NCBI GenBank assembly: GCA_026874595.1 | Contig: CM049320.1 | Location: 45,830,714-45,894,713, forward strand | Direction: 5' to 3' | Source of the DNA: Sipunculus nudus | Lineage: Eukaryota > Annelida > Sipuncula > Golfingiida > Sipunculidae | Length of the DNA: 64,000 nt | Part shown: positions 239-48,374 of the stretch, one piece after another | How the letters are laid out: each line of letters starts with the position of its first letter | Numbering within the stretch: the first letter of the stretch is position 1 | Notes under the pieces: generated by a model | Seen by the model: only the letters and a program-made list of their open reading frames with translations | The model's database searches: none | What the model was told of the DNA's origin: nothing | Position numbers and translations under genes: made by a program

Positions 239-1702
239 GTTTTAGCCAAAACGAAGTTTTGCGGATACTATGTTTTTGACCGGGTTCCACCGCCTCCGCC
301 GCGTTCGTTTCCGGAGAACTCCTCTGAGACTACTGGACAGATTTTTCCAAAAACTTACTCAAATTATCGGGTCACATGTGAACTGGTGCCTAACCAAGTG
401 ACCTTGGCCTCTGACCTTTCGTCTCTGCCCAGCGTCCGTTTGTGCGTCTGTTTCCACACATAAACCCATATATCTCGGGAGCCGTTTGACCGATCCGGAA
501 AAAAATTTTACACAAATGTAGCCCTGGGATAGCTTTATAACATACACAACAGAAGGTGGCGCCACCTGCAACCATGTTTGCACAGTGTCCATCTGTTCAT
601 CTGCCTGGGGTTAAAATCACTCATATCCCTGCAGGGGTTTGACTAATTCACCTAAAATTGGCATGCGTGTACATCCTAGATAGCTTTCTGGATTTTATGA
701 CAGGTGGCGCCACCTACATTCACGTTAATGCTGCAGACATCCAAGCTCATATCTCGGGAACCGTTTGACCAATCAGGAAAAAAAATTTACACAAATGTAG
801 CCCTTGGATAGCTTTATAATATACACAACAAAAGGTGGTGCCACCTGCAACCATGTTTGCACAGTGTCCATTTGTTCATCTGCCTGGGGTTAAAATCACT
901 CATATCCCTGCAGTGGTTTGACTAATTCACCTAAAATTTGGCATGCGTGTACATCCTAGATAGCTTTCTTAATTTTATGACAGGTGGCGCCACCTACATT
1001 CACGTTAACACTGCAGACATCCAAGCTCATATCTCGGGAACCGTTTGACCAATCAGGAAAAAAAATTTACACAAATGTAGCCCTTGGATAGCTTTATAAC
1101 ATGCACAAAAATGGTGGCGCCACCTGCAGCCATTTTTGCACAGCGTCCATCTGTTTGTCTGCCTTGGGTGTAAAATCACTCATTTCTCTGCAGTGGTTTG
1201 ACCAAATTACCTGAAATTCAGCATGCTTATACATCCCACATAGCTTTCTTGATTTTATGACAGGTGGCGCCACCTACATTTACATTCACGCTGTAGACAT
1301 CCATGCTTATATCTCCCGACTCATTCAACCAATCAGGAAAATTTTTTTACACAAATATAGCCCTTGGATAGCTTTATAACATACACAAAAATGGTGGTGC
1401 CACCTGCAGTCATTTTTGCACAGCGTCCATCTGTTTGTCTGCTGTGGGATAAAATCACTCATATCTCTGCAGTGGTTTGACTTTTCCACATGAAATTTTG
1501 CTTGTGTATATATCTTGGATAGTTTCTCGTTCAAATAACAGGTGGCACCACCTACAATCATGTTTATGTGGCAGAGATCCATTCTAATATTTAACACATA
1601 TAACTCTATATCCCCTTGCCACTCAATCCATGCCTCACTTCACCCGTCCTTCTCTGATTTTGGCGGATACACGTAGTCGCTTGTCGACTACCCGTATTCT
1701 AG
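239..1702 (+). mobile_element. Family D Helentron-like element (copy D1), full length
   Basis: The 5' end is a foldback (GTTTTAGCCAAAAC, loop gaa, then GTTTTGCGGATAC and TATG). The 3' end has the complementary motif TTTTGGCGGATAC at 1658-1670, then the hairpin GTAGTCG(cttgt)CGACTAC at 1673-1691, then CTAG at 1699-1702 followed by TT. The flanks ctgtattt and tttaattttgc rejoin to the uninterrupted sequence seen near 38244-38260, with exactly two extra T residues. The interior is about four tandem units of roughly 279 bp. No transposase is visible, so the element is non-autonomous. Confidence 0.75.
540..1575 (+). repeat. Tandem array of about 279-bp units inside D1
   Basis: Four diverged head-to-tail units, visible from the spacing of the motif around GGTGGCGCCACC at 555, 834 (variant), 1113 and 1393 (variant). 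A second copy of the palindrome occurs in each unit (703, 983, 1263 and a variant near 1541). Open frames crossing this array on the minus strand are repeat shadows, not genes. Confidence 0.75.
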
Positions 1703-2331
1703 TTTAATTTTGCATTCAGTATGCATCTGTAATAATTTTACATATATTCCTGATTTCTTTTTTATAAAAAGTCAGCTGAAAAGCATTTTATATTGGGAAA
1801 ATAAATTTCAAAGTTATTTCAAGTAGGGACCACTACTGTGTTCAGATGGCAGCACTTGGTTTACCACTGGCAGATTGCTAGTGCCTTAATGTTGGCTTTT
1901 AGCCAAGATGATGTCAGCTCTATAAATAGTTTTGGCACAGTGCCAGGATTGGAAGAAGTTCAGCCAGGTATAGGTCAAGAGTTCACTCAGTGCAAATTTT
2001 GATGTATTGGACTGATATTTTGACCTGTCTATGCGTCTTTGATGGTATTCTCTTTTAAAAGACAAGTGGTGCCTACTACATTGACTTTTGCAGTGTATGG
2101 GCCAACTTATTTCTACAGAGGAATTTGATACATTAGCCTAAAATTGGGCATGTTTATACATATCGGATATCTTTATAGTGTACAAGACTGGTGGTGCCAC
2201 CTACCATAATTTTTGCACAGTGTATGTCCCTGCTTATTTCACAGGAGGGGTTTGACATATCAGTCTGACATTGGGCATATGTATATATCTCTTTGTTGTA
2301 TATAAGACTGATGGTGCCAGGTACAATCATT

Positions 2332-3441
2332 GTATCCGCCAAAACAGAATTTTGGGGATACTTTGTTTTCAGTTGGATGCTGACCCTGCTGCCATCGCCG
2401 CGTAGGTTTCCGGAGAACTCCTCCATAACCACTGGGCAGAATTTTTTAAAATTCAGAATTATGATCGGTCACATGTGAACTGCTGCGCCCTCATTTTTGG
2501 TAGACCTCTGACCTTTCCTCTCTGCCCAGCGTCCATTTGTGTCTGTTTCCACACATAAACCCACATATCTAGGGAACTGTTTGACCGATAAGGCTAAAGA
2601 TTTTGCACAAATGTAGCCCTTGGAAAGCTTTATAACAAACACTTAAAATGGTGGCGCCACCAGCAACCATTTTTGCACAGCGTCCATCTGTTCATCTGCC
2701 TTGGGATAAAATCACTCATATCTCGGCAGTGGTTTGACTTATCCACCTGAAAGTTTGCATGTGTATACATCCTGGACAGCTTTCTTGATTTTATAACAGG
2801 TGGCACCACCTACATTCAAATTTACTTTGCAGCCATCCAAGCTCATATCTCAGGAACCATTTGTCTGATTGGGCAAAAATTTTGCATGTTTATAGGTCTC
2901 ACATAGCTCTTTATCATACGCAAATCTGGTGGCGCCACCTGCAACATTTTTGCACAGCGACAGTCTGTTTGATTGCCGTGGGATAAAATCACTCATATCT
3001 CGCAGTGGTTTGACATATCTGCCTAAAATTTTGCAGGTTTATACATCTTGGCTAGCTTTCTGGATTTTGTGGCAGGTGGCGCCACCTACATTTATGTATA
3101 CACTACATTTAGGCTTATATCTCAGGACTGGTATGACATATCCCCCTGAAATTTTGGTTGTGTATAGATCTCACATATCTCTTAATCATACACAAAATTG
3201 GTGGCGCCACCTGCCACCATTTTTGCACAGCGTCCGTCTGTTTGTCTGCCGTGGGCTAAAATCACTCATATCTCAGTAGTGGTTTGACTTATCTGCCTAA
3301 AATTTTGCTTGTTTTTATATCTTGGACAGCTTTCTGGATTTTGTGGTAGGTGGCGCAACCTACATATACATTTCGGCTGCAGACATCCAGGCTATTATGC
3401 AACACACTTCACTCTATTTCCCCTTGCCACTCAATCCATGC
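2332..3441 (+). mobile_element. Family D element (copy D3), 3' truncated
   Basis: It begins GTATCCGCCAAAAC with a foldback partner ending GGGGATAC, and is inserted after acaatcat of a family C copy. It holds the same tandem interior as D1, with GGTGGCGCCACC at 2650, 2928, 3075 and 3200. Near 3441 it passes directly into family C sequence (gttgttctaagtgtttagtacttg). The terminal hairpin and CTAG seen in D1 and D2 are missing. Confidence 0.65.
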
Positions 3442-3707
3442 CCCATGTTGTTCTAAGTGTTTAGTACTTGCATTGTTCATATACATGTTACACATGTTCT
3501 TGAAAAGTAATGGTCCAGCATTGAAGCATTATACCTGGTGTAATCTCATTGCACAGGTTCGCATTAGGCCTGTAGGCCTTGTTATGGGGGTCATTGGTCA
3601 TCTGGATACTAACCCATAATATCTAAGGAATAGCAGGAGCTACCATTCCTAGATTTAATGCAATAATCTGTCACATATCAAATGTTGTGGGATTCAGCTT
3701 ATTTTTT

Positions 3708-4708
3708 ATGCCCCCGCCACAAAGTGGCTGGGGCATATAGTTTTACTCATGTCCGTCCTTCCGTCCTTCCGAAATGAAACAGTTGTACAGACTTTTTTTC
3801 GCAATGCCTGCAGATATTGGCCTGATTCTTGTTGTCAGGGCAGATAATGACCAGTTACAGATCGAGTTCATGTATCGTCCCGGTTGACCTATTTTTGACC
3901 GTTTTACGGCTCCTAAACTTAGAAAATTTCATGAAAAATAGAAATTTTCATGACAAATACACATGTACAGACTTTTTTTCGCAATGCCTGCAGATATTGG
4001 CCTGATTTTTGGTGTGTGGGCAGATAATTACCAGTTACAGATCGAGTTTGCGTTTCGTCCCAGTTGACCTACTTTTGACCGTTTTACGGCTCCTTAACTT
4101 AGAAAATTTCATGAAAGACAAAAATTTTTATGGAAAATGCACATGTATGGACTTTTTTTTCACAGTGCCTGCAGATACTGGCGTTTCGTCCCAGTTGACC
4201 TACTTTTGACCGTTTTACGGCTCCTTAACTTAGAAAATTTCATGAAAAATATAAATTTTCATGACTAATACACATGTACGGACTTTTTTTCACAATTTTC
4301 CATAACAAATGCATATGTACCAGCTTTTTTTCCTCAATGCCTGCAGATACCACCCTGATTTTTTATGTGTGAGCAGATACTGACAGTTGCAGATCGAGTT
4401 TGCGTTTCATCCCGGTTGACCTACTTTTCATTGTCTTACGGCTCCTAAACATAGAAAATTTCATGAAAGACATAAATTTTTATGAAAAACGCACATGTAT
4501 GGACTTTTTCCACAGTGCCTGCAGATACTGGCCTGATTTTTGGTGTGTTGCTTGATAATGACCCATGACAGATCGAGTTTGCATTTTGCCCTTGTTGACC
4601 TACTTTTGACCATATGACACCTCCTGAACTTAAAAATTTTTTCAAAATTTAACAAATGTTTCTAATTTGCCCCAGGCGGGGGCATTCGTGTCGTTCCGAC
4701 ACATCTAG
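3708..4708 (+). mobile_element. Family A Helentron-like element (copy A1)
   Basis: The element starts ATGCCCCCGCCAC, loop aaa, GTGGCTGGGGCAT, ATAG, which is a foldback. It ends with GGCGGGGGCAT at 4675-4685, the complement of the first 11 bases, then the hairpin GTGTCG(ttc)CGACAC at 4688-4702 and CTAG at 4705-4708, followed by TT. The surrounding sequence (cagcttatttttt / tgctatctgc) rejoins as in the uninterrupted copy near 30131. The interior is tandem repeats only. The architecture resembles the tandem-repeat-bearing elements described in bivalves and the HINE elements of insects. Confidence 0.75.
3785..4660 (+). repeat. 180-bp tandem repeat array inside A1
   Basis: Successive units start at about 3785, 3961 and 4141 with a near-identical motif (acttttttt, then tgcctgcagatattggcctga), giving a period of 180 bp. 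Later units are partly deleted and diverged. The same unit recurs in A2 near 40550-41770. Confidence 0.75.
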
Positions 4709-4936
4709 TTTGCTATCTGCATTTACATATATTTATATATGGAAAAAGCTGAAACACCTTTAAAAGTCTTCTTGTAAACAGTTGAGTCGAATTGTTCAAT
4801 ATTTTACAGAAATGATCCCTGAGGTAAGCCCTCTCAAGTTTGTTTAAATGGTTTGCAGTTGATAAAATTAAGTGGAGTTAAACAAATTTGAACAGTCATT
4901 TGGCCAAGTAAGCATACTGAAATAGTTTACTTGAAT

Positions 4937-6660: not shown

Positions 6661-7876
6661 CAAATTTGTCACAGTTCACTCGGGGCAATTGCTTTCTCAC
6701 CTAAGCCTGGTCAGCCCCATGCATCAGATTCAAAATGTTTGATGTATTGGCCTGATATTATGACCTGTCTATGTGTCTTTGATGGCTTTCTCATTCACAA
6801 GACAAGTGTCGCCACCTACAATGACTTTCGCACAGTGTGTCGCTTTGTGCCTGCTTATTTCTATAGAGGAATTTGATATATCATCCTGAAATTAGGCATA
6901 TTTATACCTATCGGATAGCTTTGTTGTATACAATACTGGTGGTGCTACCTACAATAATTTTTGCACTGCGTGTCCCTGCTCATTTCTAAGGAGGGGTTTG
7001 ATATGTCAGTCTGAAATTGGGCATATGTATATATCGCTGATAGCTTCTTTTTATACAAGACTGGTGGTGCCAGCTACAATCATTTTTAGCTCAGCTGACT
7101 AAGTCAACTGAGGTATAGGAATGGCGCTTTGTCCGTCTTCCGGCCGGCCGGCCGGGTGCCCAGCCGTCAATTAGCAGGGCACAAATTATAACGGCTGGTC
7201 CTAGAAACTTCTTAGTGAACATCCAGGGAGGTCAATAAAAAATCTCCTTCGAAACTGAAATTAGGTCACTGCGACCTATATCCTTTGAGCTATGGGACAT
7301 AGGTACCCCCCCAGAATAATAAAAAATTTGATACAATATCTCCAATATCTTGATAATTTATGCATGGTTTGTCATGAATCATGCCTAAAATATTGACCAT
7401 GACTAGTTTTGTCAGTTCCTGAAACGTGGTGGCGCCACCTGTAATTTTTCCTATTTTAACAAATATTTTTCTATTTATTTACTATAAAATTACAACAATC
7501 ATGTCTGTGATTACAACTGGTGTCCAAAAACCTGGTGTGTTTATTGATCACAAGTGGATGCCCTATACTAATCACCCTGTCTGTCTGTCTGTTTGTATAG
7601 CTGTCTGTCTGTCAATCCGTCCATCCACACAAATTTGTTCCCAAAAGAAAACTCCAGGTTGGATTGGCACATGGATTTCAAACTTGACTTACACATGGCC
7701 AACCACTAAAGCAAGAACCTATATAATTTTGGGGTCATGAGGTCAATGGTCAAGGTAACAAGACCCGTTTCTATAAAAGGAATGTGTATGCATTTGAAGC
7801 CAAACTTTTCATCACAAACCTTCCATCTTCAAAATATTGCTAACCTGCCACTAGAGGAAGATTCTGGTTGATTTTT

Positions 7877-7895
7877 GGGTCAAAGGTCAAGGTCA
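7877..7895 (+). promoter_or_regulatory. Possible nuclear-receptor composite site (DR1 plus adjacent half-site) in a B element
   Basis: GGGTCA, one base, AGGTCA, then AGGTCA directly adjacent. This matches the known DR1 arrangement bound by RXR/HNF4-type receptors, followed by a TCAAGGTCA extended half-site as used by ERR/FTZ-F1 receptors. Equivalent sites occur at 39695-39713 (perfect AGGTCA throughout), 39974-39992 and 47714-47732. Binding is inferred only from the motif. Confidence 0.35.
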
Positions 7896-8180
7896 AAGGG
7901 CCCATCCATTCACAAATTAGTTTATGGATGATAATTCTTCTTTGGATAGACAGACTGGCTTAAAATTTGATTTAATAATGACCAACCACATAAGTAAATT
8001 CATTTTGATTTTCAGGGTCCAGAGATCAAAGTTGAAGGTCACAGAGGCCACATCTGTAGATGCACTGTAAATCAAACTTTTCATCCTGAACTTTCCAACG
8101 TTCACACATGGCTTACTTGCCCAAAGTGAGGAAACCTGTAGAATTTGAGGTTATCTGGTCAGAGGTCAAGGTCACTTTTT

Positions 8181-10746
8181 AACGAACCTGTGAACTTATG
8201 CGATGGTGTGGCGTCGTCCGGCGTCCGGCGTCTGTACGTTAACCCATACTATCTTGAAAACGGCAAGAATTAGCATCACGAAATCTTATGCATAAAATTA
8301 GTCATCTAAAAAACTCTATCGGATTTTGCTTATTTTTTGGCTAACTGCACTTCTTTAGATTCTATAGGGAAAAAGCTAAAAAAGCTTAAAAAATCTTCTC
8401 CGAATCTGTTCAGCCAAATTGTCCAATATTTTACAGAAATGATTCCTGGAACAATCTCTCTCAAGTTTGTTCGAATGGTTTAAGTTTGGTGATTTTTGGC
8501 CGAGTTACAGGAAGTTGAACTTAGTCATCTGTCCAAAAAAGCATACTAAAATTACAATCTCAGAAATGGCTTGAGTTATCATCACCAAATTTTATGCCAA
8601 TGTTGGTCACATGAGTCATATCTGAAATTGAGGTATTGGTGGCGCCACCTGCATCGGCCTTTTTTGTAGGGAGGTCATCAGTGCCCTTATCATACTGACA
8701 GCTACAAATAACTTCTTCTCTGAAACAAAATGGCCAAATTGTTTAATATCGCACAGAAATGATTCTGGGGTAGTGCTTTCTGAAGTTTGTTCAAATGGTC
8801 TCAGTTCAGTGACTTTTGGCTAAGTTATGGGAAGCTGAATTTAGTCATATGCCATAACCGCCCATTTTAGCTAAGTGGCTACAAAAATCTTCTGCTCAAA
8901 AACCATTGGGCCAAATTCTTAAATCTGACAGATTAATTATCCTTAGATGTTGATAATTTAAGTTTGTTCAAATGGTCTCAGTTCAGTGACTTTTGGCTGA
9001 GTTATGGGAAGCTGAATTTAGTCATATGCCATAACAGCCCATGTAAGCTAAGTGGCTACAAAAATCTTCTTCTCAAAAACCACTCGGCCAAATTCTTAAA
9101 TCTCACACATTAATTATCCTTAGATGTTGATAATTCAAGTTTGTTCAAATGGTCTCAGTTCAGTGACTTTTGGCTAAGTTATGGGAAAGTGAATTTAGTC
9201 ATATGCCATAACAGCCCATATTAGCTAAGTGGCTACAAAAATCTTCTTCTCAAAAACCACTGGGCCAAATTCTTAAATCTCATACATTAATTATCCTTAG
9301 AAGTTGATAATTCAAGTTTGTTCACATGGTTTTGGTTCAATGATTTTTGGCTGAGTTATGGGAAGCTGAACTTTGCCATTTTGCTGTATTTTCCTATATG
9401 AGTTATAAACCTACAAAACGTTTTTCAACTGATGATACTGAGGCCAGTTTGTTTAATATTTTGCAAGAATAATTCCCTGAATCATTCTAATAATAATTGT
9501 CTTTTATGGTTCCAAAAAATGAATTTTGGCTGAATTATTAAGATTGAATTGAGTCATTTTACCATATATGTTAGCTGTGTGAAGCAGATACATCTAGCCT
9601 AGCACCAGTTTATCAGCATCCATTACATCATGCCTCTAGACGTTTAGATTTCAGAATATCTATGGAAAATATTGACAAGAATGTTTTTAAAAGCTTTTAA
9701 AAAATGTAGATTTATGATATTACATATCATCTGTACACTATTCATAATTTCTCAGGAATAGCAGGAGCTACCATCTCCAAATTTTATGCAATTATCAGTC
9801 ACATATCAAATGTTGATGGATTCAGCTTATTTTTGCTATCTGCATTTACTTAGATTTTACAGGGGAAAAGCTGAAAAAAACTTCTTCTTCTTGTAAAGAG
9901 TCCAGCCAAATTGTTCAATATTTTACAGAAATGATCCCAGAGGCGAGCCTTCTCAAGTTTGTTCAAATGGTTTGTGTTGGATAAATTTTTAGCAGAGTTA
10001 CATAACAGGCCAAGATTGTGTATGTTTCTTGAATAGGTTGAGAAACTGCCAACTGTTTCAGATTTGGCAACAAATCAAGAGTTCATTCAGTGCATCCAGA
10101 TTGAGGTCAAGAGTTCAATCAGTGCAAGCCAAGCACAAGGCATGTGATCACCTCATGGGCAGCATGTGATCATTTCATGGGTAGCATGTGATCACCTCAT
10201 GAGTATCATGTGATCACCTCATGTTCATTCAGTGCAGCCAGGTACAGGTCAAAAGTTCACTCAGTCTGGCAAGGTGCAGGTCAAGAGTTCACTCAGTGCA
10301 GTAGCCTGAGCCAGTAATTTGTCACAGTACACTCCGGGCAACAGCCTTTCTCACCTAAGCCTGGTCAGCCCCGTGCATCAGACTCAAGGTAAGTTTGATG
10401 TATTGGCCTGATATTCTGACCTGTCTATGTGTCTTTGATGGCTTTTTCATTCACAAGACAGGTGTTGCCATCTACAATGACTTTTGCAAAGTGTATGTGC
10501 CTGCTTAATTCTACGGAAGAATTTGATATATCAGCCTGAAATTGGGCATATTTATACATGTCAAATAGCTTTGTCGTATACAAGATTGGTGGTGCCACCT
10601 ACAATAATTTTTGTGTTGTGTGCACCCATGCCAAAATGTTTGGTACTTGCATTGTTCATATATATGAAAAGTAGTGGTTCAGCATTGAAGCCTTATACCT
10701 GGTGTATATCCATATGCACAGGTTCGCATTTGGCCTGTAGGCCTTG
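8181..10746 (+). mobile_element. Family C Helentron-like element (copy C1), full length, nested in B
   Basis: It starts AACGAACCTGTGAAC after gtcacttttt and ends GCACAGGTTCGCATT, hairpin GGCCTGTAGGCC at 10732-10743, then TTG, followed by ttaaaagattg. The empty site is preserved at 48019-48035 (gtcac, five T, aaaagattg). Insertion added the 2566-bp element plus exactly two T. The interior holds a 178-bp tandem block (8750-9350), GGTGGCGCCACC at 8638 and the minisatellite block near 10080. No open frame resembles a helicase or transposase, so it is non-autonomous. Confidence 0.8.
8750..9350 (+). repeat. Tandem block of about 178-bp units in C1
   Basis: The phrase tttagtcatatgccataac recurs at about 8840, 9017 and 9195, with the intervening text (ccactgggccaaattcttaaa, then ttaattatccttagatg) conserved. 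The period is about 178 bp over three units. Related units occur near 37560-37740, 43020-43170 and 44450-44650. Confidence 0.65.
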
Positions 10747-11092
10747 TTAAAAGATTGTTACAATAATCCTAATGCTGCAACTTCAAGGATATTAAGTTCT
10801 AAGATTGTTTGGTTACTAGGTCATTGGTTAAGGTCACAGGACTGTCATTCTGAAAAATTTCTTTCAAAATATCCTTACAGACAAATTCAACTGAGCGTTG
10901 AGACCCATGGGTCCCTAGTTGTGTTGTGTGCACCCATGCCAGAATTTCAGCAGTGATGTTTGTGTAATTGTTTCTTATTCAAAATGTTTAGTACCTGCAT
11001 TGTTCATATACATGAGAAGTCATGGTCCAGCATGGAAGCATTATAGATGGTGTTTCCCAATGCACAGGTTCGCATTAGGCCTGTAGGCCTTG

Positions 11093-11625
11093 TTCGAATT
11101 TTTATGATTTTTTTCTCTTTTCTCAGACCTGCAATGAAACTGTCATATGTTAACAGGGCACAAATCGTTTCCACTGGACCTGGAATCATCAAACTTAATA
11201 TCCAGGGAGGTCCATGAAAAATCTCCTTGAAAACCTGAAATTAGGTCTCTGTTACCCATATTCTCTGAGCTATAGGGCTCGTAAATACCCCCAAGAATAA
11301 TTAAAAATTTGATACAAACAAAAGCTCCAGTATCTAAATAATTAATGCCTTGATAGCCATGATTCTTGGGATATATTGATAATGGAGTGTTTCATCAGTT
11401 CCTGCAGACTGGTGGCACTACCTGTATTTGTTTCAAATTTTTACGTATTTTTCTTTCTATTTATGAGACCTTCAAATGAAGATGTCATCTGTCCAAAAGC
11501 CCACTGAAACCCATTTCTTAGAACTCTTCACAAAATTCATGATTTGTTTGCACTCTGGCAGTCATTTTGCTCATTGTTAAACATTCCTTGAATTCAGCTG
11601 AGCGTCATGGCCCATGGGCCACTAG
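11093..11625 (+). mobile_element. Family B 3' fragment
   Basis: B-type interior (gttaacagggcacaaatcg, ctgaaattaggtctctgttaccc, ctggtggcactacctgtat) ending at tcagctgagcgtcatg, the palindrome GGCCCATGGGCC and CTAG at 11622-11625. The 5' end is missing. It directly follows a C 3' end at 11092. Confidence 0.6.
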
Positions 11626-11879: not shown

Positions 11880-13159
11880 TGTTGTTTTTTAAAAGCTTTT
11901 TAAAGAATTAGATTTATGGTTGAAAGTATTCATCATATCAGGCAATGCTACAGTCATGGATATTCAGACCTCTGTGGCTATATAAAGGAGGCTGTACATG
12001 GATTATAAATAATTGGTATCCATACTCAACTTAATTCTAGAATTTGCAATCAGTGAGATTTATCTGTATTATAATTTTGCATTCAGTATGCATCTGTAAT
12101 AATTTTTCATATATTCCTGATTTCTTTTTTTTTTAAGTCAGGGGGAAAGCATTTTGTTTTTGAAAAATTTATTTCAAAGTTATTTCAAGTAGGGACCACT
12201 TTTGTGTAAAGATGGCAGCACTTGGTTTACCATGGGCAGACTGCTTAGATTTGCCAGTGCCTGGATGTTTGCCATTAGCCAAGCTGATGTCAGCTGTATA
12301 AATAGCCATGCCACTAGACATTTAGATTTCAGGTCGGATAGCTTGGCAGACTGCCAACTATTTCAGATTTGGCAAAAGGCCAAAGGTCAGCCAGGATCTA
12401 TTTATAGCTTTGGCAGACTGCCAACTGTGTTAGATTATGCAACAGGTCAAAAGTTCACTCAGTGCAGCCAGGTACAGGTCAAAGTTCACTTAGTCTAGCC
12501 AGGTGCAGGTCAAGAGTTCACTCAGTGCAATAGCTTGAGCTATTTGTCACAGTTCACTTGGGACAACTGCCTTTCTCACCTAAGCCTGGTCAGCTAGTGC
12601 ATCAAACTCAAGGGAAGTTTGATGTATTGGCCTGATATGTTGACCTGTCTATGAGTCTTTGATGGCTTTCTCATTCACAAAGGAGGTGTTACCACCTACA
12701 ATGACTTTTGCACAGTGTATACTCCTGCTTATTTCTACCGAGGAATTTGATACATCAGCCTGAAATTGGGCATATTTATACATATTGGATAGCTTTATTG
12801 TGTACAAGACTGGTGTTTCCACCTACAAAAAATTTTGCACAGTGTATGTCCCTGCTTATTTTGCTGGCGGGGTTTCACATATCAGTCTGAAATTGGGCAT
12901 ATGTATATATATATATATATATATATCTTAGTTGTATAAAAGACCAGTGGTGCCAGCCACAATCATTTTTGTGTTGTGTGCACCCATGCCAGAATTTCAG
13001 CAGCGACGTTTGTGTAATTGTTTCTTGTTCAAAATGTTTAGTACTTGCATTGTTCATATACATATAACACACGTACTTGAAAAGTAATGATCCAGCATTG
13101 AAGCATTATACCTGGTGTATATCCCATTGCACAGGTTCGCATTAGGCCTGTAGGCCTTG
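11880..13159 (+). mobile_element. Family C copy, 5' truncated
   Basis: Collinear with the 3' half of other C copies from the ttttaaaagctttttaaag segment through the minisatellite to the terminal GCACAGGTTCGCATTA, hairpin GGCCTGTAGGCC and TTG at 13159. It contains two perfect TTGGC-N5-GCCAA palindromes (12343-12357 and 12410-12424) and a (TA)n run near 12903-12925. Confidence 0.65.
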
Positions 13160-14500: not shown

Positions 14501-17500
14501 AGTGAACCAGTGAGCTTCTGTGATGGTCCTGCGTCATGCAGCATCTGTACATTAACCCATACTATCTCTAAAATGGCAGGAGATAGCATCACCAAACTTT
14601 ATGCAAAAATCAGTTATCTAAAAAAATTATCAGATTTTTTTTTATTTTTTGGCTATCTGCATTTACTTAGATTTTAATAGGAAAAAGCTTAAAAACCTTT
14701 AAAAATTGAAACCAGCCAAATTGTTCAATATTTCACAGAAATAATTCCAGAAACAATCTCTCTCAAGTTTGTTTGAATTGTTCCAGTTCCATTTTGGCCA
14801 AGTTTCAGGAAGTTGAATTTAGTCATCTGTCCAAAAAAGCATACTAAAATTTCAATCTCAGAAACAGCTGGAGCTATCATCACCAAATTTTCTGCCAGTG
14901 TTGGTCACATGAGCCATATATGAAATTCAGGTATTGGTGGTCACCAGCATTGACCTTTTTTAGCTCAGCTGGCTATAAGTCATCTGAGCTATAGTCGTGG
15001 TCCATTGTCCGTCGTCCGTCCGTCCGTCTGTCTGTCTGTCCGTCTGTCTGTCCGTCTGGATGTCCATCAATAAGACTGGCACGTTTCGACACCGTTGGAC
15101 CTACGAATCTGACATTCGGCATACAGTTAGATGTCCCCAAAATCTTCTACCATGCCGAAAATTGGGTCAATAGGACTTCGTTCCTTCGAGATATTAAGGA
15201 AAAACCTCAATTTTTTATTAGAAATCTATTTTCCCACTTCAGGACTGCCTAATATCAAAACCACTCATTTGGTTTTCTTCATATTTACCATAAATATTCC
15301 TCTGTCTAGTTCCTATGTACATGCCAGATATTAAGTCAGTATTATATAATTTAAAAAAGTTATGGGTCCAAACATAATGGACTTTGTAAAAAAATCAGGA
15401 AGATATTTGGTCACTTAAGACCAAAAGTGTTAAAGGTAGGGACTTTTTTCCAGTAATACAACTTTAATTAATCAAAATTTAAATGTATACCAAAAATTAG
15501 AAAATCTGTTCAATTTTTTTTAAATATTGGCTAAAATATAAAATTGGTACCTTAAATTTTGCCCAACTGGCAACGGCACATTTTTTTCCTGTTAGTATTG
15601 TGGATTTAATTTTCACAGCATGTATACATAAGGGTTTAATCTGTTAAAATCTGAAAGCTGCAAAATTAGGCTAGTTATTGAATTTTTTGGAGGCTCTTGT
15701 TGTATTCCCTTACATTGTCAAGCAGTCCACTTTGATGACTGTAGGTCATTCAGTGCACATCTCTATGCTCCCCAGGCTGTTGGCATAATTTTAGATGTCC
15801 CCAAAATCTCCTACCAAACCGAAAATTGGGTCATTAGGACTTTTTTCCTTCGAGATATTAAGGAAAAAAACTCTGTTTTCCATAAAAAAAGCCATTGTTA
15901 CACTTCGAGGCTGCCTAATATAAGCCACTGATCTGTTTTTGATCGTATTTAGTATTCACATTCTTTCATACATTTTCTATGAACATACCAAAAATTAGGT
16001 CAGTATTGGGTATTATTTTGAAGTTATGGGCCAAAACATAATGCAGATTTTTAAAAAATCAGTAAATATATTTACTCACCTAACATGAGATTTGCTGAAC
16101 CTAGAGACTTTATTTTTTCAGGAATATAACTTTATTTAATCAAGATTCAATTGTTTACCCAAAATTAGATCTGAATTTTGCAAATTTTTCAAGTTATTAG
16201 CATAAATAAAAAATCAATACCTTAAATTTTGTCCAACTTTGGCACTGTTGATTTAATTTTCACAGCATATATACATAAGGATTTAATCTTTTAAAATCTG
16301 AAATTTCAAAGAAATTGATTGGAAAGAATAGCTTTTATTCATGTTTTCATACACCATGTCAAGTGTTGTTTACATCTAGCCCACCTAGTAGTACAGCCTT
16401 CACTTGCATTATGTAACCCACCCCAGGCAGCTTGCTTTGGGCCAGCTTGGCCACTACCAGCAGGCTTCCCCTCTGCCCTGCACCCCCCCCCCCCTGATGG
16501 TGCATAAACTAGATGAATATTCTTATTATTTTCTGTATTTGATTCATTCTTATTCTAGGCTATGCTACATTTTAGATTTTGTATTGTACCACCAGGGATA
16601 CAATGATTAAAGTGTACATTTAATTGTGTCCACAAAGTGGTGTATTGCTATGAAAGTGTGGATGTTCATGAGATAATAATTCCTTACTTCAGAAGAGTAA
16701 AAACTTCACCAGGTGTGAAATTGACTATTAATTCCAGTAATAAGTTAAAACTGGGATAGTAATTAGCACAATGATATTGTTTGTCCCTCATTCAACCAAC
16801 AGTGTGTATACTTTATTTGAAAAGATGTTTTATTTGATCAAATTTACTTTATCTTTTATTTTATTTTGGTGAATAAAATTAAGCATGTACTGAAAACTCC
16901 AATGTGCAAAACTTTTTAATAGTGATTCAAGGAATATTCTTGTAGATGCCATGTTGTGGCATTATTTTCTTTTAAATTCAGTTTAAACATTTATGATTTT
17001 AAAAATAATAAAATATATGTGTTTGCATAATATGACCCAATATGAGATACACTCTGGATATATGATGATTGCAACTTTTGCAACAATTCTAATATTTTAA
17101 CTTATAGTTTCAGTTTTTTTACTCTGTATATATAATGATTGCAACTTTTGCAACAATTCTAATATTTTAACATATATTTTCAGGTTTTTTAATAAAAATT
17201 TATAAAACCTGTAAATTCAGATAAAAACTTCTTAATGGAAAAAGTGGATATGCTTAAAAAAATAGGATTATATATAAACTTAAATGCATTATTCCCTTGA
17301 AAGTGAAATAAAGGTATTAGTCCATTCTGTCCACTTGCCTGTCCATCTGTAAATTTCATATGCATCACAGTATCTCAAAACTTTTACTGTTTTTTTTCTT
17401 TTTGCAATCATATATTTAGAACTATACTATAACGGAGTAGGAGGGCCCCTTTCCTCTTAGCTTTTCATATTCTAATATAAATGAAAAACATTACAATAGA

Positions 17501-36913: not shown

Positions 36914-39303
36914 AACGAACCTGTGAGCTTATGCGATGGTGCTCTGTCGTGTGTCGTACGTCGTGCGGCGTCTGTACGTTAACCATAGCTATCTCAAAAA
37001 CGGCAGGAGCTAACTAGCATCACCAAATTTTTTGCAAATAATCAGTCATCCAAAAAACTATATCAGATTTTGTTTTGTTTTTTTTTCTAACTGCATTTTC
37101 TTGGATTTTATAGGGAAAAAGCTAAAAAAAGCTTTAAAAATCTTCTTCTCTGAAACTGTCCAGCCAAATATTTAACAGAAATGATCCCTGGAACAATCTT
37201 TCTCAAGTTTGTTTGAATGGTTCCAGTTCGGAGATTTGTGGTTGAGTTACAGGAGGTTGAACTTTGTTAACTGTGCAAAAAAGCATATTAAAATTTAAAT
37301 CTCAGAAACAGCTGGAGCTGTCATCACCAAATTTTATGCCAATGTTGGTCACATAGGTCATATCTGAAATTGAGGTATTGGTGGCGACACCTGCATTGGC
37401 CTTTTTTGTACGGGGTCATCAGTGCCTGTATCACACTGAGGGCTACAAAAAACTTCTTCTCTGAAACCATATGGCCAAAATGTTTAATATCGCACAGAAA
37501 TGATCCTATGGTAGTGCTTTCTGAAGTTTGTTCAAATGGTCTCAGTTCAGTGACTTTTGGCTAAGTTATGGGAAGCTGAATTTAGTCATATGCCATAACA
37601 GCCCATTTTAGCTCAGTGGCTACAAAGATCTTCTTCTCAAAAACCACTGGGCCAAATTCTTAAATCTCACACATTAATTATCCTTAGATGTTGATAATTC
37701 AAGTTTGTTCAAATGGTTTTGGTTCAGTGCTTTTTGGCTGAGTTACGGGAGCTGAACTTGGCCAGTTTGCTGCATCTTCCTATATGAGTTATAAACCTGC
37801 AAAACGTTTTTCGACTGATGCCACTGAAGCCAGTTTGTTAAATATTTTACAAGAATAATCCCTACAATTCTTATAATAATTGTCATTAATGGTTCCACAT
37901 GAATGAAATTTGGCTGAATTATGGAGCTTGAATTGAGTCATTTTACCATATATTTTAGCTGTGTGATGCTTTTACATCTAGCCTGGCACCAGTTTATCAG
38001 CATCTATTACATCATGCCACTAGACATTTAGATTTCAGGTTATCTTTGGTTAATTTTGACAAGAAAGTTTTTTTAAAAAGCTTTTAAAAAATTTAGATTT
38101 ATGATTTAAGTTATTCATCATACCAGGCAATGTTACAATCATGGATATTCAGTTCTCTGTGGCTATATAGAGACATATATAATTATACATTATTGGTATC
38201 CCTACTCAACTTAATTCAAGAATTTGCCATCAATGAGATATATCTGTATTTTAATTTTGCATTCAGTATGTATCCATAAAAATTTTACATATATTCCTGA
38301 TTTCTTTCTTATAAAAAGTCAGCTGAAAAGCATTTTGTATTGGGAAAATAAATTTCAAAGTTATTTCAGGTAGGGACCACTTTTGTGTTCAGATGGCAGC
38401 ACTTGGTTTACCATTGGCAGATTGCCAATGCCTTGATGTTGGCCATTAGCCAAGATGATGTCAGCTCTATAAATAGTTATGGCACAGTGCTAGGATTGGA
38501 AGAAGTGCAGCCAGGTATAGGTCAAGAGTTCACTCAGTGCAGTAGCTGCATTCTATTTATAGCTTTGGCAGACTGCTCATTGCATCATATTTGGCACCAA
38601 AGTTCAGCCTGAGTCTATTTATAGCTTTGGCAGACTGCCAACTGTGTCACATTATGCAACAGGTCAAGAGTTCACTCAGTGCAGCCAGGTACAGGTCAAA
38701 AGTTCACTCAGTCTTGCCAGGTGCAGGTCAAGAATTCATTCAGTGCAGTAGCTTGAGGCAGCAATTAATCACAGGTCACTAAGGGGCAACTGCCTTACTC
38801 ACCTAAGCCTTGTCAGCCCAGAGCATCAAACTCTGGGGAAGTTTGATGTATTGGACTTATATTTTGACCTGTCTATGTGTCTTTGATGGTATTCTCATTT
38901 ACAAGACAAGTGGTGCCAGCTACATTGACTTTTGCAGTGTATGTGACTGCTTATTTTTGTACAGAGGAATTTGATACATCAGCCTAAAATTGGGCATATT
39001 TATACATATCGGGTAGCTTTATAGTGTACAAGACTGGTGGCGCCACCTACAATAATTTTTGCACAGTGTATGTCCCTGCTTATTTCACAGGAGGGGTTTG
39101 ACATATCAGTCTGACATTGTTTTTGTGTTGTGTGCACCCATGCAGCAGTGATGTTTGTTTAATTGTTTCTTGTTCTAAGTGTTTAGTACTTGCATTGTTC
39201 ATATACATGTTACATTTGTTCTTGAAAAGTAATGGTCCAGCATTGAAGCATTATACCTGGTGTAATCTAATTGCACAGGTTCGCATTAGGCCTGTAGGCC
39301 ATT
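36914..39303 (+). mobile_element. Family C element (copy C4), full length
   Basis: It starts AACGAACCTGTGAGCTTATG and ends GCACAGGTTCGCATTA, hairpin GGCCTGTAGGCC, then ATT and a T run. The flanking B sequence (caaatatttttct / aactataaaatgcc) matches intact B near 47353-47385. The length is 2.39 kb. It contains the exact palindromes GGTGGCGCCACC at 39036 and TTGGC-N5-GCCAA at 38627-38641. Confidence 0.75.
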
Positions 39304-40300: not shown

Positions 40301-43300
40301 AGCGAACTTGTGAGCTTATGCGATTGCGCAGCATCGTCCGTCCATCGTCAGCCATCCGCCGTCCAGGGCTGGCTTTCCCCCGTCCATGGCTGTAGTCAGA
40401 AACCGTCAGAGCTAGCAGCTCCAAATTACATGTAAGAATTAGTCACATGTGAAACTTGGTGCCCTTGAGCTTATTTTTATGCCCCCGCCACAAAGAGCCC
40501 GGGGCATATAGTTTTACCCATGTCCGTCCTTCCGTCATTCCGAAATAAAACAGTTGTACGGACTTTTTTTCGCCATGCCTGCAGATATTGGCCTGATTTT
40601 TAGTGTGTTGGCAGATAAGGACCAGTTACAGATCGAGTTCGCGTTTAGTCCCAGTTGACCTACTTTTGACCGTTTTACGGTTCCTTAACTTAGAAAATTT
40701 CATGAAAAATATAAATTTTCATGACAAATACACATGTACGGACTTTTTGTCTCATTGCCTGCAGATATTGGCCTGATTTTTGGTGTGTGGGCAGATAATG
40801 ACCAGTTACAGATTGAGTTCGCATTTTGTCCCAGTTGACCTGCTCTTGTACGTTTTACGGCTCCTTAACTTACAAAATTTCATGAAAAATATAAATTTTC
40901 ATGACAAATACACATGTACGGACTTTTTTTCGCAATGCCTGCAGATATTGGCCTGATTTTTGGTGTGTGGGCAGATATTGACCAGTTACAGATTGAGTTC
41001 GCGTTTCGTCCCAGTTGACTTACTTTTGACCGTTTTACAGCTCCTTAACATAGAAAATTTCATGAAAAATTTAAATTTTCATGACAAATACAAATGTACT
41101 GACTTTTTTTTGCAATTCCTGCAGATATTGGCCTGATTTTTAGTGTGTTGGCAGATAAGGACCAGTTACAGATCGAGTTCGCGTTTCGTCCCAGTTGACC
41201 TACTTTTGACCGTTTTATGGTGCTCTACCATAGAAAATTTAATAAAAAAGTGCACATGTACAGACTTTTTTTCACAATGCCTGCAGATACGGGGCTGATT
41301 TTTGGTGTGTAGGCAGATAATGACCAGTTACAGATCAAGTTCTTGTTTTGTCTCAGTTGACCTACTTTTGACCATTTGACTGCTCCTGAACATAGAAAGT
41401 TTCATGAAAAATAGAAGTTTTCATAACAAATGCATATGTACCGTCTTTTTTCCTCGATGCCTGCAGATACCACCCTGATTTTTTATGTGTGGGCAGATAA
41501 TGACAGTTACAGATCAAGTTCGCGTTTAATCTGGGTTGACCTACTTTTGATTGTTTTACGGCTCCTAAACATAGAAAATTTCATGAAAGACAGAAATTTT
41601 TATGGAAAATGCACATGTATGGACTTTTTTCACAATGCCTGCAGATACTGGCCTGATTTTTGGTGTGTTGATAATGATAATGACCCGTAACAGATCGAGT
41701 TTGCATTTTGCCCTTGTTGACCTACTTTTGACCATATGACACCTCCTGAACTTTTTTCAAAATTTAACAAATGTTTCTAATTTGCCCCAGGCAGGGGCAT
41801 TCGTGTCGTTCCGACACATCTAGTTTGGTATCTGCATTAATTTAGATTTTATAGAGAAAAAGCTGGAAAACCTTTAAAAATCTTCTTCTCTGAAACTGTC
41901 CAGCCAAATTGTCCAATATTTCACAGAAATGATCCCTGGAACAATCTCTCTCAAGTTTGTTCTAATGGTTCCAGTTTGAGTTTTGGCCTAGTTACTGGAG
42001 GTTAAACTTACTCATCTGTCAAAAAAAGCACACTAAAATTAAAATCTCAGAAACGGCTAGAGCTATAATCACCAAATTTTATACCAATGTTTGTCACATA
42101 TGTCATATCTGATTTTGAGGTATTGGTGGCGCCACTTACATTGATGTGTTTTTTACAAGCAAAAATGTAATTTTAAACTCTTCTTGCTTATACACTGATT
42201 TATGATGAAACTGTTATGCTGATTGGTTTAAACTTTACAAGAATTATTCTATGGTAGGTTTATGCCAGTTTTATAAGAATAGGTTGGGTAAATGCAGCTT
42301 TTAAAAAAGTAGTGTAGCCAATTAAAAAAGGCCTTCTGTGTTTGAAAACAGATTTGACAACACGGTGAGTTTCAGCAGCCAGGTCAAGAGGTCACTGAGT
42401 ACAACCAGGTGGGGTCCAGACATCACCATGGCAACTGACCTGGCTCTGTCTGGTGTCTAGACAATGTGTCTAGACGCCAAGACACAGCGTCTAGGCGTCT
42501 ATTAATACGCAGAATGTCCAGATTAGAAGTATTGGAACTGTATCTTTTAACTGTTTGAAAAAACTTGGTTTGCATTTTTAGCGAATCTGTGAGCTAATGC
42601 AATGGTGTTCTGTCGTTGATCTTCTGTCGTCCGGCATGCGTCATAGCTATCTCTAAAAGGGCAGGAACTAGCATCACCAATTTTTTTTTGCAAAAATTTT
42701 GTCATCTAAAAAATTCTATTGGATATTGCTTATTTCTTGGCTAACTGCATTTTTAGCGAACCTATGAGCTTATGCGTCGTGCGTCGTACGTTTTGCATCG
42801 TCTGTACGTTCACCATAGCTATCTCAAAAACAGCAATAGCTAGCATCATCAATTTTTTTGCAAATAATCAGTCATCTGAAAAACTCTATCGGATTTTGTT
42901 TACTTTTTTCTAACTGCATTGTCTTAGATTTTAAAGGGAAATGAGGGCTACAAAAAACTTCTTCTCAGAAACCATATGGCCAAAATGTTTAATATCGCAC
43001 AAAATGATCTTAGGATAGTGCTTTCTGAAGTTTGTTCAAATGGTCTCAGTTCAGTGACTTTTGACTTAGTTATGGAAAGCTGAATTTAATCATATGCCAT
43101 AACAGCCCATTTTAGCTCAGTGGCTACAAAGTCTCAAAAACCACTGGGCCAAATTCTTAAATCTCACACCGAGTTAAGGGAAAATGAACTTAGCCAGTTT
43201 GCTGTATCTCGGTCATAGCTATCTCTAAAAGGGCAGGAGCTAGCATCACCAATTTTTTTGCAAAAATTTTGTCATCTAAAAAATTCTATCAGATTTTAGT

Positions 43301-43650: not shown

Positions 43651-43818
43651 TGGATAATCTAAATAATCTAAATGCTGCAAGTTCAAGGATAATTAGTTCT
43701 CAGATTTTTTGGTCACAAGGATATTGGTTAAGGTCACAGGACCGTCATTCATAAAAAATTTCTTTAAAAATATCCTTATAGACAAATACAGCTGAGCGTC
43801 AATCCTATGGGTCCCTAG

Positions 43819-43975
43819 ATATTCAAGCGACACCTACGCATAATAAAAGGTTGCGCTGTTACTTTTATTTCGATATTATTATGCTAATTTAGAGCACGCC
43901 CTGTAGGTTTTTATATACAAATTATATAAAAAGTGATTACTTTTGCAAAGAAATAGCATTCATTATAAGGAGAAT
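43819..43975. other. Short unique spacer
   Basis: AT-rich sequence between a B 3' end and a C fragment. No gene or repeat-family match is seen. Confidence 0.4.
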
Positions 43976-46900
43976 GAGACTCGTCGTCTGTACGTTAACC
44001 CTAGCTAACTCAAAAACGGCAGCAGCTAGCATCACCAAATTTTTTTGCAAATAATCAGTCATCTGAAAAACTCTAATGGATTTTGTTTATTTTCTTTTTC
44101 TAACTGTATTTTCTTAGATTTTATAGGGAAAAGCTAAAATAAGGTTTTAAAATCTTCTTCTCTGAAAATGTCCAGCCAAATGTCCCATATTTCACAGAAA
44201 TGATCCCTGGAACAATTTCAGGTTATCTTTGGTTAATACTGACAAGAATGCTTTTAAAAGCTTTTAAAAAATTATATTTATGATTTAAGTTATTCATCAT
44301 ACCAGCCAATGTTACAAACATGAATTTTCAGCTCTGTTTGCCTTAAAAAACAACTGTACATGGATTATAAATTATTGGTATCACTACACAGAAATGATCC
44401 TCGGGTAATGCTTTCTGAAGTTTATTCAAATGGTCTCAGTTCAGTGACTTTTGGCTGAGTTATGGGAAGCTGAATTTAGTCATATGCCATAACAGCCCAT
44501 TTTTGCTCAGTTGCTACAAAGATCTTCTTCTCAAAATCCACTGGGCCAAATTCTTAAATCTCACACATTAATTATCCTTAGATGTTGATATTTCAAGTTT
44601 GTTCAAATGGTTTTGGTTCAGTGATTTTTGGCTGAGTTATTGGAAGCTTAACTTTGCCATTTTGCTTTATTTTCCCATATGAGTTATAAACCTGCAAAAC
44701 GTTTTTTGACTGACGCCACTGAGGCCAATTTTACAAGAATAATCCCCTGAATAATTCTTATAATAATTGTCTTTTATGGTTCCAAAGAATGAATTTTGGC
44801 TGATTAATAAAGATTGAATTGAGTCATTTTACCATATATATTAGCTGTGTGAAGCAGATACATCTAGCCTGGAACCAGTTTATCAGCATCCGAAACATAA
44901 TGCCTCTAGACATTTAGATTTCAGGTTATCTTTCGTTAATATTGACAAGAATTTTTTAAAACTTTTAAAAAATGAAGATTTATGATTTTAGATATTCCTC
45001 TTGCCAGGTAATGTTTACAAGCACAGGTATACGTTAACCCATACTATTTCGAAAACGACTGGAGCTAGCATCATGAATTTTAATGTAAAAAATTAGCAAT
45101 CTGAAAAAAATCTGCATTTTCTTAGATTTTACAGAGAAAAAGCTAAAAAAAAACCTTTAAAAATCTTCTCCTCTGAAACGATCAAGCCAATTTGTTCAAT
45201 ATTTCACAGAAATAATCTTTTATACCATCTCTCTCAAGTTTTTTCAAATGGTTCAAGTTCTGGGAATTTTGGCCGAATTACAGGAAGTTGAACCTAGTCA
45301 TCTGTCCAAAAAAGCATACTAAAATGACAATCTCAGAAACCGCCAGAGCTATCATCACCAAATTTTATGCCAGTGTTGGTCACCTGTGTCATATATGAAA
45401 TTCAGGTATTGGTGGCCCCACCTGCATTTACCTTTTTTTTATACAGGGGTCATTGGTCATCTGTATATCAACCCATAATTTCTCAGGAATTGCAGGAGCT
45501 ACCATCCCCAGATTTTATGCAATTATCTGTCACATATCAAATAATGTCGGACTCAGCTTATGTTTTTTGCTATCTGCATTTACTTAGATTTTATAGGGGA
45601 AAAGCTGAAAAACCTTTAAAAGTCTTCTTGCAAACGTTCCAGCCAAATTGTTCAATATTTTACAGAAATGATCCCAGAGGCAAGCACTCTCAAGTTTGTT
45701 CAAATGGTTTGCATTTGATGAATTTTAGTGGAGTTAAATGAATTTGAACGGTCATTTGGCCAAGTAAGCATACTGACATAGTTATCTCAGAAATGACAGA
45801 AGCTAGCATTACCAAGTATTGTGCAAATGTTGGTCACATGACTCATATTTGAAGTTGCAGATTTTAATGTGCCAACTACATTGACCTGTTTTTTTATGGG
45901 CAAAAACCTCATAATTTTAGCCTCTTTCAGCTAAAAATTTTTATGATGAAACTGTCAAGTTGAATCAATCAATTTTTCAAAAGAATTATCGTAGGACATG
46001 GTTTTTTCAATCATATCAGAAAAACTTAAGTTGGTCTTATGGCCATTATTATGTCTAACTCAAACTGAGGACTGCAAATTTGTTCTTCTACAAAATTATT
46101 GTTTCAATTATAACTTCTGTTACATGGCACAAAAATTATTCTTAGGTGGCCTTTGTTCAAGTTTACTTGAATGATTTTTGGCAGAATTATTAGACCTTTT
46201 ACAATGAAAGAACTGAATCTTTTATTTTTCTAGATATTATGATAAAAAGTTTATAAATATTTCAGCTTGAAAAAAAGCATTTTAGCCAAATTCTTTCAGT
46301 ATGTGTGAACAGATTTGCCAACAGGCCAAGATTGTGTCTGTATATTTACATAGGTTAAGAAACTGCCAACTGTTTCAGATTTGGCAATAGATCAAGAGTT
46401 CATTCAGTGCAGCCAGATATAGGTCAAGAGTTCAGTCAGTGCAGCCAAGCACAAGGCATGTGATCCCCTCATGGGTGACATGTGAACACCTCATGGGCAC
46501 CATGTGATCACCTCATGGGTGTCATGCCCCTCAGGGCTACATGTGGAGCCAATCTGTTTATAGCTTTGGCAGACTGCCAGCTGTATCAGATTAGGCAACA
46601 GGTCAAGAGTTCACTCAGTGCAGCCAGGTACAGGTCAAAAGTTCACCCAGTCTAGCCAGGTGCAGGTCATGAGTTCACTCAGTGCAGTAGCCTGAGCTAG
46701 CAAATTTGTCACAGTTCACTCGGGGCAATAGCCTTTCTCACCTAAGCGTGGTCAGCCCCATGCATCAGACTTAAGGTAAGTTTGATGTATTGGCCTAATA
46801 TTTTGACCTATCTATGTGTCTTTGATGGGTTTTTCGTTCACAAGACAGGTGTCACCACCTACAATGACATTTGCACAGTGTGTGTCCCTGCTTATTTCTC

Positions 46901-48374
46901 AGGAGGGGTTTGATATATCAGTCTGAACTTGGGCATATGTATATATCTCTGAAACCTTCTTGTATACAAGACTGGTGGTGCCAGCTCCAATCATTTTTAG
47001 CTCAGCTGACTGTAAGTCAACTGAGGTATAGGAATGGCGCTTTGTCCGTCGTCAGTCTGGACATCCGGCCATCCGTTAGCAGGGCACAAATAATAACAGC
47101 TGGTCATAGAAACTTCTTAGTGAACATTCCGGGTCAATTAAAAATTTCCTTGGAAACCTGAAATAAGGTCACTGCGACCTTTTTCGTTCGAGCTATGGGG
47201 CTTGAAAGTACCCCCCAGAATAGTAAAAAATTTGATACAAAACCTCCAATATCTTGATAATTAATGCATGGTTTGTCATGGATTTTGCCTTGAATATTGA
47301 CTATGACTAGTTTTGTCAGTTCCCGAAACGTGGTGGTTTTCCTATTTGAACAAATATTTTTCTATTTATTTAATATAAAATGACAACAATCATGTTGGTT
47401 TCTCAGCTGTCATTACATGTGGTGTCCCAAAACCTGGTGTGTTTATTGATCACAAGTGGATGCCCTTTACTAATCACCCTGTCTGTCAGTCTGTCTGTTT
47501 GTATGTCTGTCTCTCTGTCAATCTGTCCATCCACACAAATTAGTTTCCAGATGATAACTCCAGTTAAGTTTGATATATTGGTTTCAAACTTAACTTATAA
47601 ATGGCCCACCACTAAGAAATGTGTATGCATTTGAAGCCAAACTTTTCATCGCAAACCTTCCATCTACAAGATATTGCTAACCTGCCACTAGGGGAAGATT
47701 CTGTTTGATTTTTGGGTCAAAGGTCAAGGTCACAGGGCCCATCCATTCACAAATTAGTTTATGGATGATAATTCTGCTTTGGATAGACAGACTGGCTTCA
47801 AACTTGATTTAATAATGACCAACCACATATGTAAATTCATTTTGATTTTCAGGGTCCAGCTATCTAAGTTGAAGGTCACAGAAGCCACATCTTTAAAAAG
47901 ATTGTGGATGCACTGTAAATCAAATTTTTCATCCTGAACTTTCCAACATTCACACATGGCTTGCTTGCCCAAAGTGAGGAAATCTGTAGAATTTGAGGTT
48001 ATCTGGTCAGAGGTCAAGGTCACTTTTTAAAAGATTGTTACAATATTCCTAATGCTGCAGGTTCAAGGATATTAAGTTCTAAGATTTTTTGGTTACAAGG
48101 TCATTGGTTAAGATCACAGGACTGTCATTCTGAAAAATTTCTTTCAAAATATCCTTATAGACAAATTCAACTCAGTGTTGAGACCCATGGGTCCATAGTT
48201 GTGTTGTGTGCACCCATGCCAGAATTTCAGCAGTGATGTTTGTGTAATTATTTCTTATTCAAAATGTTTAGTACCTGCATTGTTCATATACATGAGAAGT
48301 CATGGTCCAGCATTGAAGCATTATACCTGGTGTATTTCCCAATACACAGGTTCGCATTAGGCCTGTAGGCCTTG
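43976..48374 (+). mobile_element. Family C composite ending at 48374, with nested B
   Basis: C-type sequence with rearranged blocks: the 5' interior restarts near 43983 and 45028. It runs on through the minisatellite at 46390-46700 and, after the nested B element (46999-48198), to the terminal GCATTAGGCCTGTAGGCC and TTG at 48374. The 46041-46060 segment preserves the empty site for D2. At least two C copies are probably merged here. Confidence 0.5.
46999..48198 (+). mobile_element. Family B element, compact 1.2 kb copy
   Basis: It starts AGCTCAGCTGACTGTAAGTC, then AACTGAGGTATAGG. It ends actcagtgttga, palindrome GACCCATGGGTC at 48182-48193, CATAG, then TT. It interrupts ccaatcattttt / gtgttgtgtgcaccc of family C with two extra T. 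The interior contains a tgtctgtctg run, a nuclear-receptor-like composite at 47714-47732 and the empty site of C1 at 48019-48035. It is the cleanest uninterrupted B in the window. Confidence 0.75.

Follow-up and report, generated by a model that had tools for sequence, protein, structure and literature searches.

How four families of repeats with unlike bodies come to share one arrangement of ends is the question raised by a 64,000-nucleotide stretch of the Sipunculus nudus genome (G000:C15:45830714-45894713; the window, by which we mean this whole stretch at its full length), in which self-similarity is strong from the start to ~49 kb and slight beyond. A preliminary description had claimed that families A, B, C and D end in a common layout despite unrelated-looking bodies, had inferred that one or a few Helentron-type Rep-helicases mobilise them all, and had named the system the best candidate in the window for an undescribed one. 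In the window, all four families begin with a terminal motif whose complement stands close to the 3' end and is followed there by a short hairpin, CTAG, CTTG or TTG, and T, and the subTIR feature (the 5' motif together with a complementary motif ahead of the 3' end) is present in four of four. The A 3' structures lie at 4675 and 41790 and the A 5' motifs at 3708 and 40479. Family B has 3' structures at 10887, 11594, 18121, 20428, 21529, 25888, 27884 and 43788, several of them degenerate, and 5' motifs in ten places on the + strand, while family C has ten 3' structures, the last of which, at 49613, falls just past the range of 239-48374 covered by the preliminary description, and about nine 5' counterparts. 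The D 3' structures are at 1662 and 31793 and its 5' motifs at 2332 and 30664, with a degenerate one near 239-245.

These structures are not confined to the window. Searching the 1.43-Gb genome at ≤3 mismatches gave 4,822 matches to the 3' pattern of A, 37,485 to that of B, 11,860 to that of C and 10,050 to that of D (the B and C patterns end before the final CTAG/CTTG/TTG), and 0 for the reversed pattern of each family under the same conditions; an exact 27-mer of C was matched 4,214 times and its reverse 0 times. Thousands of matches against none for reversed patterns indicate that the end structures are not due to chance. The claim of a single terminal layout therefore stands, with all 3' structures and their 5' counterparts present as written.

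The limits of the elements were examined through unoccupied sites, using an automated search for places where the sequence to the left of a 5' end continues into that to the right of a 3' end; rows joining the ends of different elements, or B ends among themselves, were left out. Such sites were found for eight elements (two of A, three of B, two of C and one of D), all on the + strand. Both A elements are HINEs with a 180-bp array and both ends: element 1 (3708-4708; empty sites at 45566 and 30143) sits in a C body and element 2 (40479-41823; empty site at 9832-9834) in a C-like body. The first B element (7088-10918; empty sites at 19851 and 12935-13000) lies within a C body and itself contains a nested C element (8182-10746; empty site at 48027-48029). 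Of the other B elements, that at 14962-18152 has 5' and 3' ends and an empty site at 30015-30016, and that at 23269-25919, which contains a 166-bp array and two additional internal 5' ends (24208 and 24725), has its empty site in locus L018. The second C element (36915-39303) has an empty site at 7474-7480, and D element 3 (30664-31833), complete at both ends, has one at 46049-46050. The remaining D elements, also on the + strand, are less well delimited: element 1 (239-1702) contains a two-half 280-bp array and has a degenerate 5' end and hence an approximate start, a 3' end at 1662-1702 composed of GGCGGATAC, the hairpin and CTAG, and unoccupied counterparts of similar sequence at 38220-38275 and 18940-19000, while element 2 (2331-3445, right limit approximate) has its 5' end, is truncated, and shows no 3' terminus in the window. 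Outside the window, an A element splits the B Helentron L055, whose near-twin E6 lacks the interruption.

At the empty sites of all four families, insertion took place in a T-run or TT, with no duplication other than of Ts, whose number varies; a variable number of Ts at insertion has been described for Helentrons (PMC4067079). The boundaries of all four families are real and do not lie elsewhere than the preliminary description had placed them. It was also observed that both window A elements (3708 and 40479) and one coding A copy (L056, see below) are inserted at T-runs of one kind within C bodies, which may reflect independent hits or co-amplified composites.

To compare the ends as structures, one copy of each family was folded and scored as z against shuffled sequences. 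A 3' hairpin is present in four of four families, as the preliminary description had it; however, while its z was -2.59 in A and -2.28 in D, it was -0.33 in the folded B copy (25888) and -0.75 in the folded C copy (10717), which are no more stable than shuffles. An additional common part, absent from the preliminary description, lies at the other end, where the 5' motif of A, B and D pairs with an adjoining downstream inverted repeat to form a hairpin of 6-7 bp, a mismatch or bulge, 5-6 bp and a loop of 3-5 nt (z of -4.79, -3.60 and -5.56, respectively, for one copy each). The A and B hairpins have an identical dot-bracket structure, (((((((.(((((...))))).))))))), despite unlike sequences, and no 5' inverted-repeat hairpin appeared on folding one copy of C (z of +1.32). 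Since the 5' motif of A, B and D is complementary both to the adjoining repeat and to the 3' end, two pairings are open to it, one local and one with the 3' end.

The likeness to Helentrons and HINEs, including DINE-1, that had been proposed holds feature by feature against the published accounts of HINE/DINE-1 and of Cg_HINE, as far as these accounts were available (PMC4067079, PMC7492417), and the same comparison removes the claim to an undescribed system. HINE, DINE-1 and Helentrons have subTIRs, in some cases a 5' inverted repeat, a 3' stem-loop and TT insertion (Thomas, Vadnagara and Pritham 2014, PMC4067079); HINEs are there described as deletion derivatives of elements coding for Rep, helicase and endonuclease, the protein set of Helentrons, with tandem repeats in some copies. 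The subTIRs, 3' stem-loop, T targets and tandem repeats are as in families A-D, whereas the element sequences here differ, as judged without the sequence set of that paper, and the coding partners of 12-16 kb reported below themselves carry repeats. Cg_HINE of Crassostrea gigas consists of a 5' subTIR with an inverted repeat, a GTCC/GTCY microsatellite, a satellite-like array of mostly 140-180 bp, and then a 3' subTIR and a palindrome, and occupies oligo-T sites (PMC7492417); an inverted repeat beside the 5' subTIR is thus a known HINE part, and the likeness of Cg_HINE to the families here is drawn from its description. According to the available part of the same article, none of ten autonomous elements in Repbase could be related to the oyster elements, so that Cg_HINE is without a related autonomous element, whereas here partners were found for two of four families.

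Other Helitron groups resemble the four families less closely. Helitron2 and FoHeli elements share asymmetric terminal inverted repeats with A-D, and FoHeli1 and 2 have hairpins at both ends, but the latter two have ATTTT as their terminus and TNAT|T as their insertion site, while FoHeli3-5 end in CTCCTGT; joined-end circles are on record for a Fusarium Helitron, and the accessible portion of that article makes no mention of a FoHeli endonuclease (PMC5148889). Canonical Helitron1 elements, as treated in the same portion, have a 3' hairpin, and CTAG would fit their CTRR, yet the combination of 5' TC, 3' CTRR and A/T insertion is not found in the families here, which lack the 5' TC, include CTTG outside CTRR, insert in T-runs rather than at A/T and are accompanied by an endonuclease. 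The kind of element is therefore known, and what is new here are the coding partners and a palindrome, GGTGGCGCCACC. No report of such coding partners in molluscs is apparent in the open-licence literature, as far as its texts were accessible, and Repbase may already include coding elements of this sort.

The preliminary description had proposed a search for these termini in the flanks of Rep, helicase and endonuclease genes, and this search recovered coding elements with A ends and with B ends. Two coding A copies were delimited. Copy 1 (C3:41778497-41766495, - strand; 12,003 bp by coordinates) runs from an A 5' end through a Rep match to an A 3' end, and copy 2 (C5:20300944-20313327, + strand; 12,384 bp by coordinates) likewise has A ends with a Rep match inside; the sequence read covers each copy apart from 3.5 kb with Rep and helicase and, in copy 2, ~1.4 kb more. 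Their 3' regions are 98.65% identical over 889 bp, a likeness that ends at CTAGTTT (L015/L027), and their flanks differ, 5' side included. In copy 1 the A 5' end lies ~7.4 kb upstream of Rep, with no A or B 3' end between the two in the stretches read. Both copies contain 180-bp arrays, and their 5' 1.2-1.3 kb show 81-82% identity over most of the length to window A element 2, while window A element 1 reaches only 77%. The Rep match inside the element is to PF14214, a frame upstream of Rep contains DUF6570, and an endonuclease fragment matches Exo_endo_phos (PF03372) with 36.5 bits, above the cut-off, so that the set of Rep, PIF1-type helicase and endonuclease is represented in part in A, by its Rep and endonuclease members. 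A stop within the endonuclease match of copy 1 and another within the Rep match of copy 2 are signs of decay, and neither copy seems fully intact. Behind close relatives of the A endonuclease, A 3' termini were found in four of six cases, two of them degenerate.

The complete set is present in a coding element with B ends. E5 (L009/L059; C17:35640361-35625479, - strand; 14,883 bp, read end to end) encodes a frame of 2,342 aa (P0001) that comprises, in order, a Herpes_teg_N-like domain, 21-aa repeats, DUF6570, Helitron_like_N (PF14214), PIF1 (PF05970) and Exo_endo_phos (PF03372, 20.5 bits against a cut-off of 24.5); an SDH motif apparently out of frame is a sign of decay. A second copy (L020; C5:42923483-42907358, - strand; 16,126 bp by coordinates) was read except for ~11.5 kb of its middle, which includes Rep and helicase. 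The likeness between coding B elements begins in the Ts before AGCTCAG and ends in the Ts after CTTG, and homology stops at the terminus in several comparisons of B copies (in the Ts after CTTG for E5/L029 and L019/L020, and at CTAGTT for L022/L026). In E5 the B 5' end lies ~9.7 kb upstream of Rep, with no A or B 3' end between them in the stretches read; a B 5' motif at E5:788 had been considered as the end of the element and was dropped, as weak homology with E4 continues past it; the element starts farther upstream. A search of the 11.4 kb preceding Rep in the E6-type B element did not reveal a 5' end. Over 1.17 kb, the 5' regions of the coding B elements match the window at 24.2-25.4 kb with identities of 93.4% and 94.8% (93.35% for 24232-25402 against one of them), and the 3' ends of B in the window correspond to different coding loci: the terminus at 18121-18152 (+ strand), which belongs to the element at 14962-18152, is of the GCCGTGACCCATGGGTCCCTTG type found in E6/L013, that at 11594-11625 (+ strand) is of the GGCCCATGGGCC-CTAG type of L022/L026, and that at 25888 is of the TCATGACCC...CTTG type and matches the E5 group.

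Several features of the coding B elements deserve mention in their own right. Tandem repeats and DUF6570 occur in the Helentron frames of both L009 (P0001) and L053, with the Herpes_teg_N-like N-terminal domain in P0001. Additional B 5' ends in the interior, with no 3' end to match them, occur in E5 (which has B 5' ends at 1331 and 2055), in L080/L079 and in the HINE at 23269-25919, and those in coding elements follow on a 337-bp repeat. D elements are found inside E5 and near the B Helentrons L034 and L008, and their presence within B Helentrons implies that some D movement took place later than B insertion.

The Helentron reading thus holds for A and B, each of which has its separate Helentrons. 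To what extent it extends to C and D was approached through a survey of the coding loci. With 150 of 195 candidates scored, the genome contains at least 143 matches to Helitron_like_N (PF14214), and 72 3' segments (158,300 bp) were searched, taken from 46 Rep loci and 26 further Rep or endonuclease loci, none of the latter chosen for its ends; 19 of these 26 had been retrieved with the A endonuclease as query and 7 were from both the Rep and the endonuclease lists. At a uniform ≤3 mismatches on the sense strand, 30 of the 72 segments have a B 3' end (2.1 expected), a count that stands for fewer independent events since E6/L013 and L081/L082 are duplicates of each other, and four have an A 3' end (0.27 expected), which is not a random draw given the 19 loci from the A-endonuclease search with its six close relatives. 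On the opposite strand a B 3' end occurs in two loci of 72, and looser, script-specific settings place A 3' ends in 6 segments, B in 32 and neither in 34. A D 3' end was found in 0 of 72 (0.56 expected at ≤3 mismatches) and a C 3' end in one (0.66 expected), which is at chance level, the sole case, L069, lying behind a B end. A and B termini accompany Rep or endonuclease genes; no coding partner of C or D was found among these 72 segments, which sample part of the Rep loci. A second Rep group, comprising 11 of the first 46 loci, has none of the four ends in its 3' segments (L001-L006, L016, L017, L023, L025, L031, L038, L043 and L052 are loci of this group), and the Rep clade that includes E1-E3, which have long tandem arrays behind the gene, has other ends.

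The bodies of the families, described as unrelated, are so only in part. Family B is otherwise unlike C and D, but B, C and D have in common the 12-bp palindrome GGTGGCGCCACC, which occurs 37 times in the window at ≤1 mismatch, 21 times exactly, with 0.05 expected (the first at 555-566, unstranded; range 555-49095). It is usually followed by TR. C bodies, the D array and the 337-bp B repeats all contain it, as do the 5' regions of coding B Helentrons (three sites in E5, one with a mismatch, and four in L020); it is absent from the window A elements and from the coding A element's upstream region. Neither the 166-bp B array nor the 177-bp C array has it, and a single D unit, near 31246, no longer carries it. 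Genome-wide, GGTGGCGCCACCTRC has 70,981 exact matches against 1 reversed, AGGTGGCGCCACCT has 41,727 sites against 0 reversed and TGGTGGCGCCACCT has 67,294 against 2 reversed, the last two amounting to about 109,000 exact 14-base copies. Around the palindrome little else is alike: flank identity of B to C or D is 0.23-0.30, with nothing else clearly in common, and the two halves of the D repeat, which share the palindrome, have flanks alike at only 37 of 90 positions, while C and D have partly common flanks (consensus 0.43 and 0.57). Between families, then, the palindrome stands at about 0.9-1.0 and the flanks mostly near background. Conservation within families was set aside as a sign of constraint, because sites were picked by their match to the palindrome and assigned by hand, and because 8 of the 16 imperfect window copies are transitions at the central CG. 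The palindrome may be a binding site under constraint or a relic of a common ancestral repeat. A more specific proposal, that it acts in cis as a conserved site for the spread of Helentrons, putatively bound by a Helentron or host protein, through which unlike families use a common machinery and which became a very common word of the genome, seems to us quite improbable. A search of literature text by sequence words gave matches that seem unrelated by title, repeat sequences being rarely printed.

Taken together, these data make it very probable that the four families are HINEs, that is, non-autonomous tandem-repeat Helentron elements moved by a rolling-circle Rep-helicase-endonuclease. That a single such enzyme mobilises all four might be expected from the identical layout and T-run target and from the palindrome common to B, C and D, but the idea is contradicted for A and B, which have their own coding Helentrons with endonucleases of 29-36% identity, and B ends are themselves carried by several lineages (E5 and E6, for example, have 68% DNA identity); we therefore regard it as highly unlikely. 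What remains of the earlier proposal of one or a few Rep-helicases is that Helentron-type elements with A and B ends do exist. A narrower version, in which C and D have no remaining Helentron of their own and rely on B-type machinery acting in trans, would account for the lack of a partner among the 72 segments, for the link of GGTGGCGCCACC to B and for the 10,000 or more copies of each family; their terminal motifs are unlike those of B, however, and the Rep loci were sampled in part (150 of 195 candidates scored), so that we consider it rather doubtful.

Readings outside the Helentrons fare worse. Elements of this kind were formerly called MITEs (PMC4067079, in the part available), and their short complementary terminal motifs could suggest derivation from a DDE transposon, yet inverted repeats at the very ends and a target-site duplication were not found: the empty sites show no such duplication, the complement lies inside the 3' end, and Rep matches fall within A and B ends, which contradicts this origin for A and B and leaves it with hardly any probability. 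Nor does it seem credible that the termini are mere satellite or segmental-duplication junctions; the window is indeed rich in tandem arrays and local duplications, but thousands of fixed-end copies across the genome and precise empty sites contradict such an explanation.

For the Helentron reading, which we prefer, a route of movement can be outlined. Rep would recognise the 5' motif or hairpin and, by analogy with what is generally known of Helitrons, would nick at the junction of the 5' T and the element, after which the helicase would displace the strand; transfer would end at the 3' complement, the hairpin and CTAG or CTTG, and the released strand would then enter a T-run. C and D may be moved likewise, by extinct, rare or unsampled Helentrons, or in trans. 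The 5' regions of the coding A and B elements already contain the repeats of the short elements, and the A and B HINEs accordingly look like internal deletions in which the 5' region would have been kept along with the final portion of the 3' end. As the window B 3' ends match several B lineages, the B HINEs appear to descend in this way from several related Helentrons.

Oysters have abundant HINEs that carry satellite-like repeats, none of which, in the published account as available, has been linked to a coding element (PMC7492417). Here, coding Helentrons that share their ends were identified for two families, and the repeats reside within the coding element itself, which suggests that inheritance as part of a Helentron is one way for arrays to spread, besides capture by short derivatives. 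Families A and B also provide defined pairs of ends with which the rolling-circle mechanism of Helentrons can be tested.
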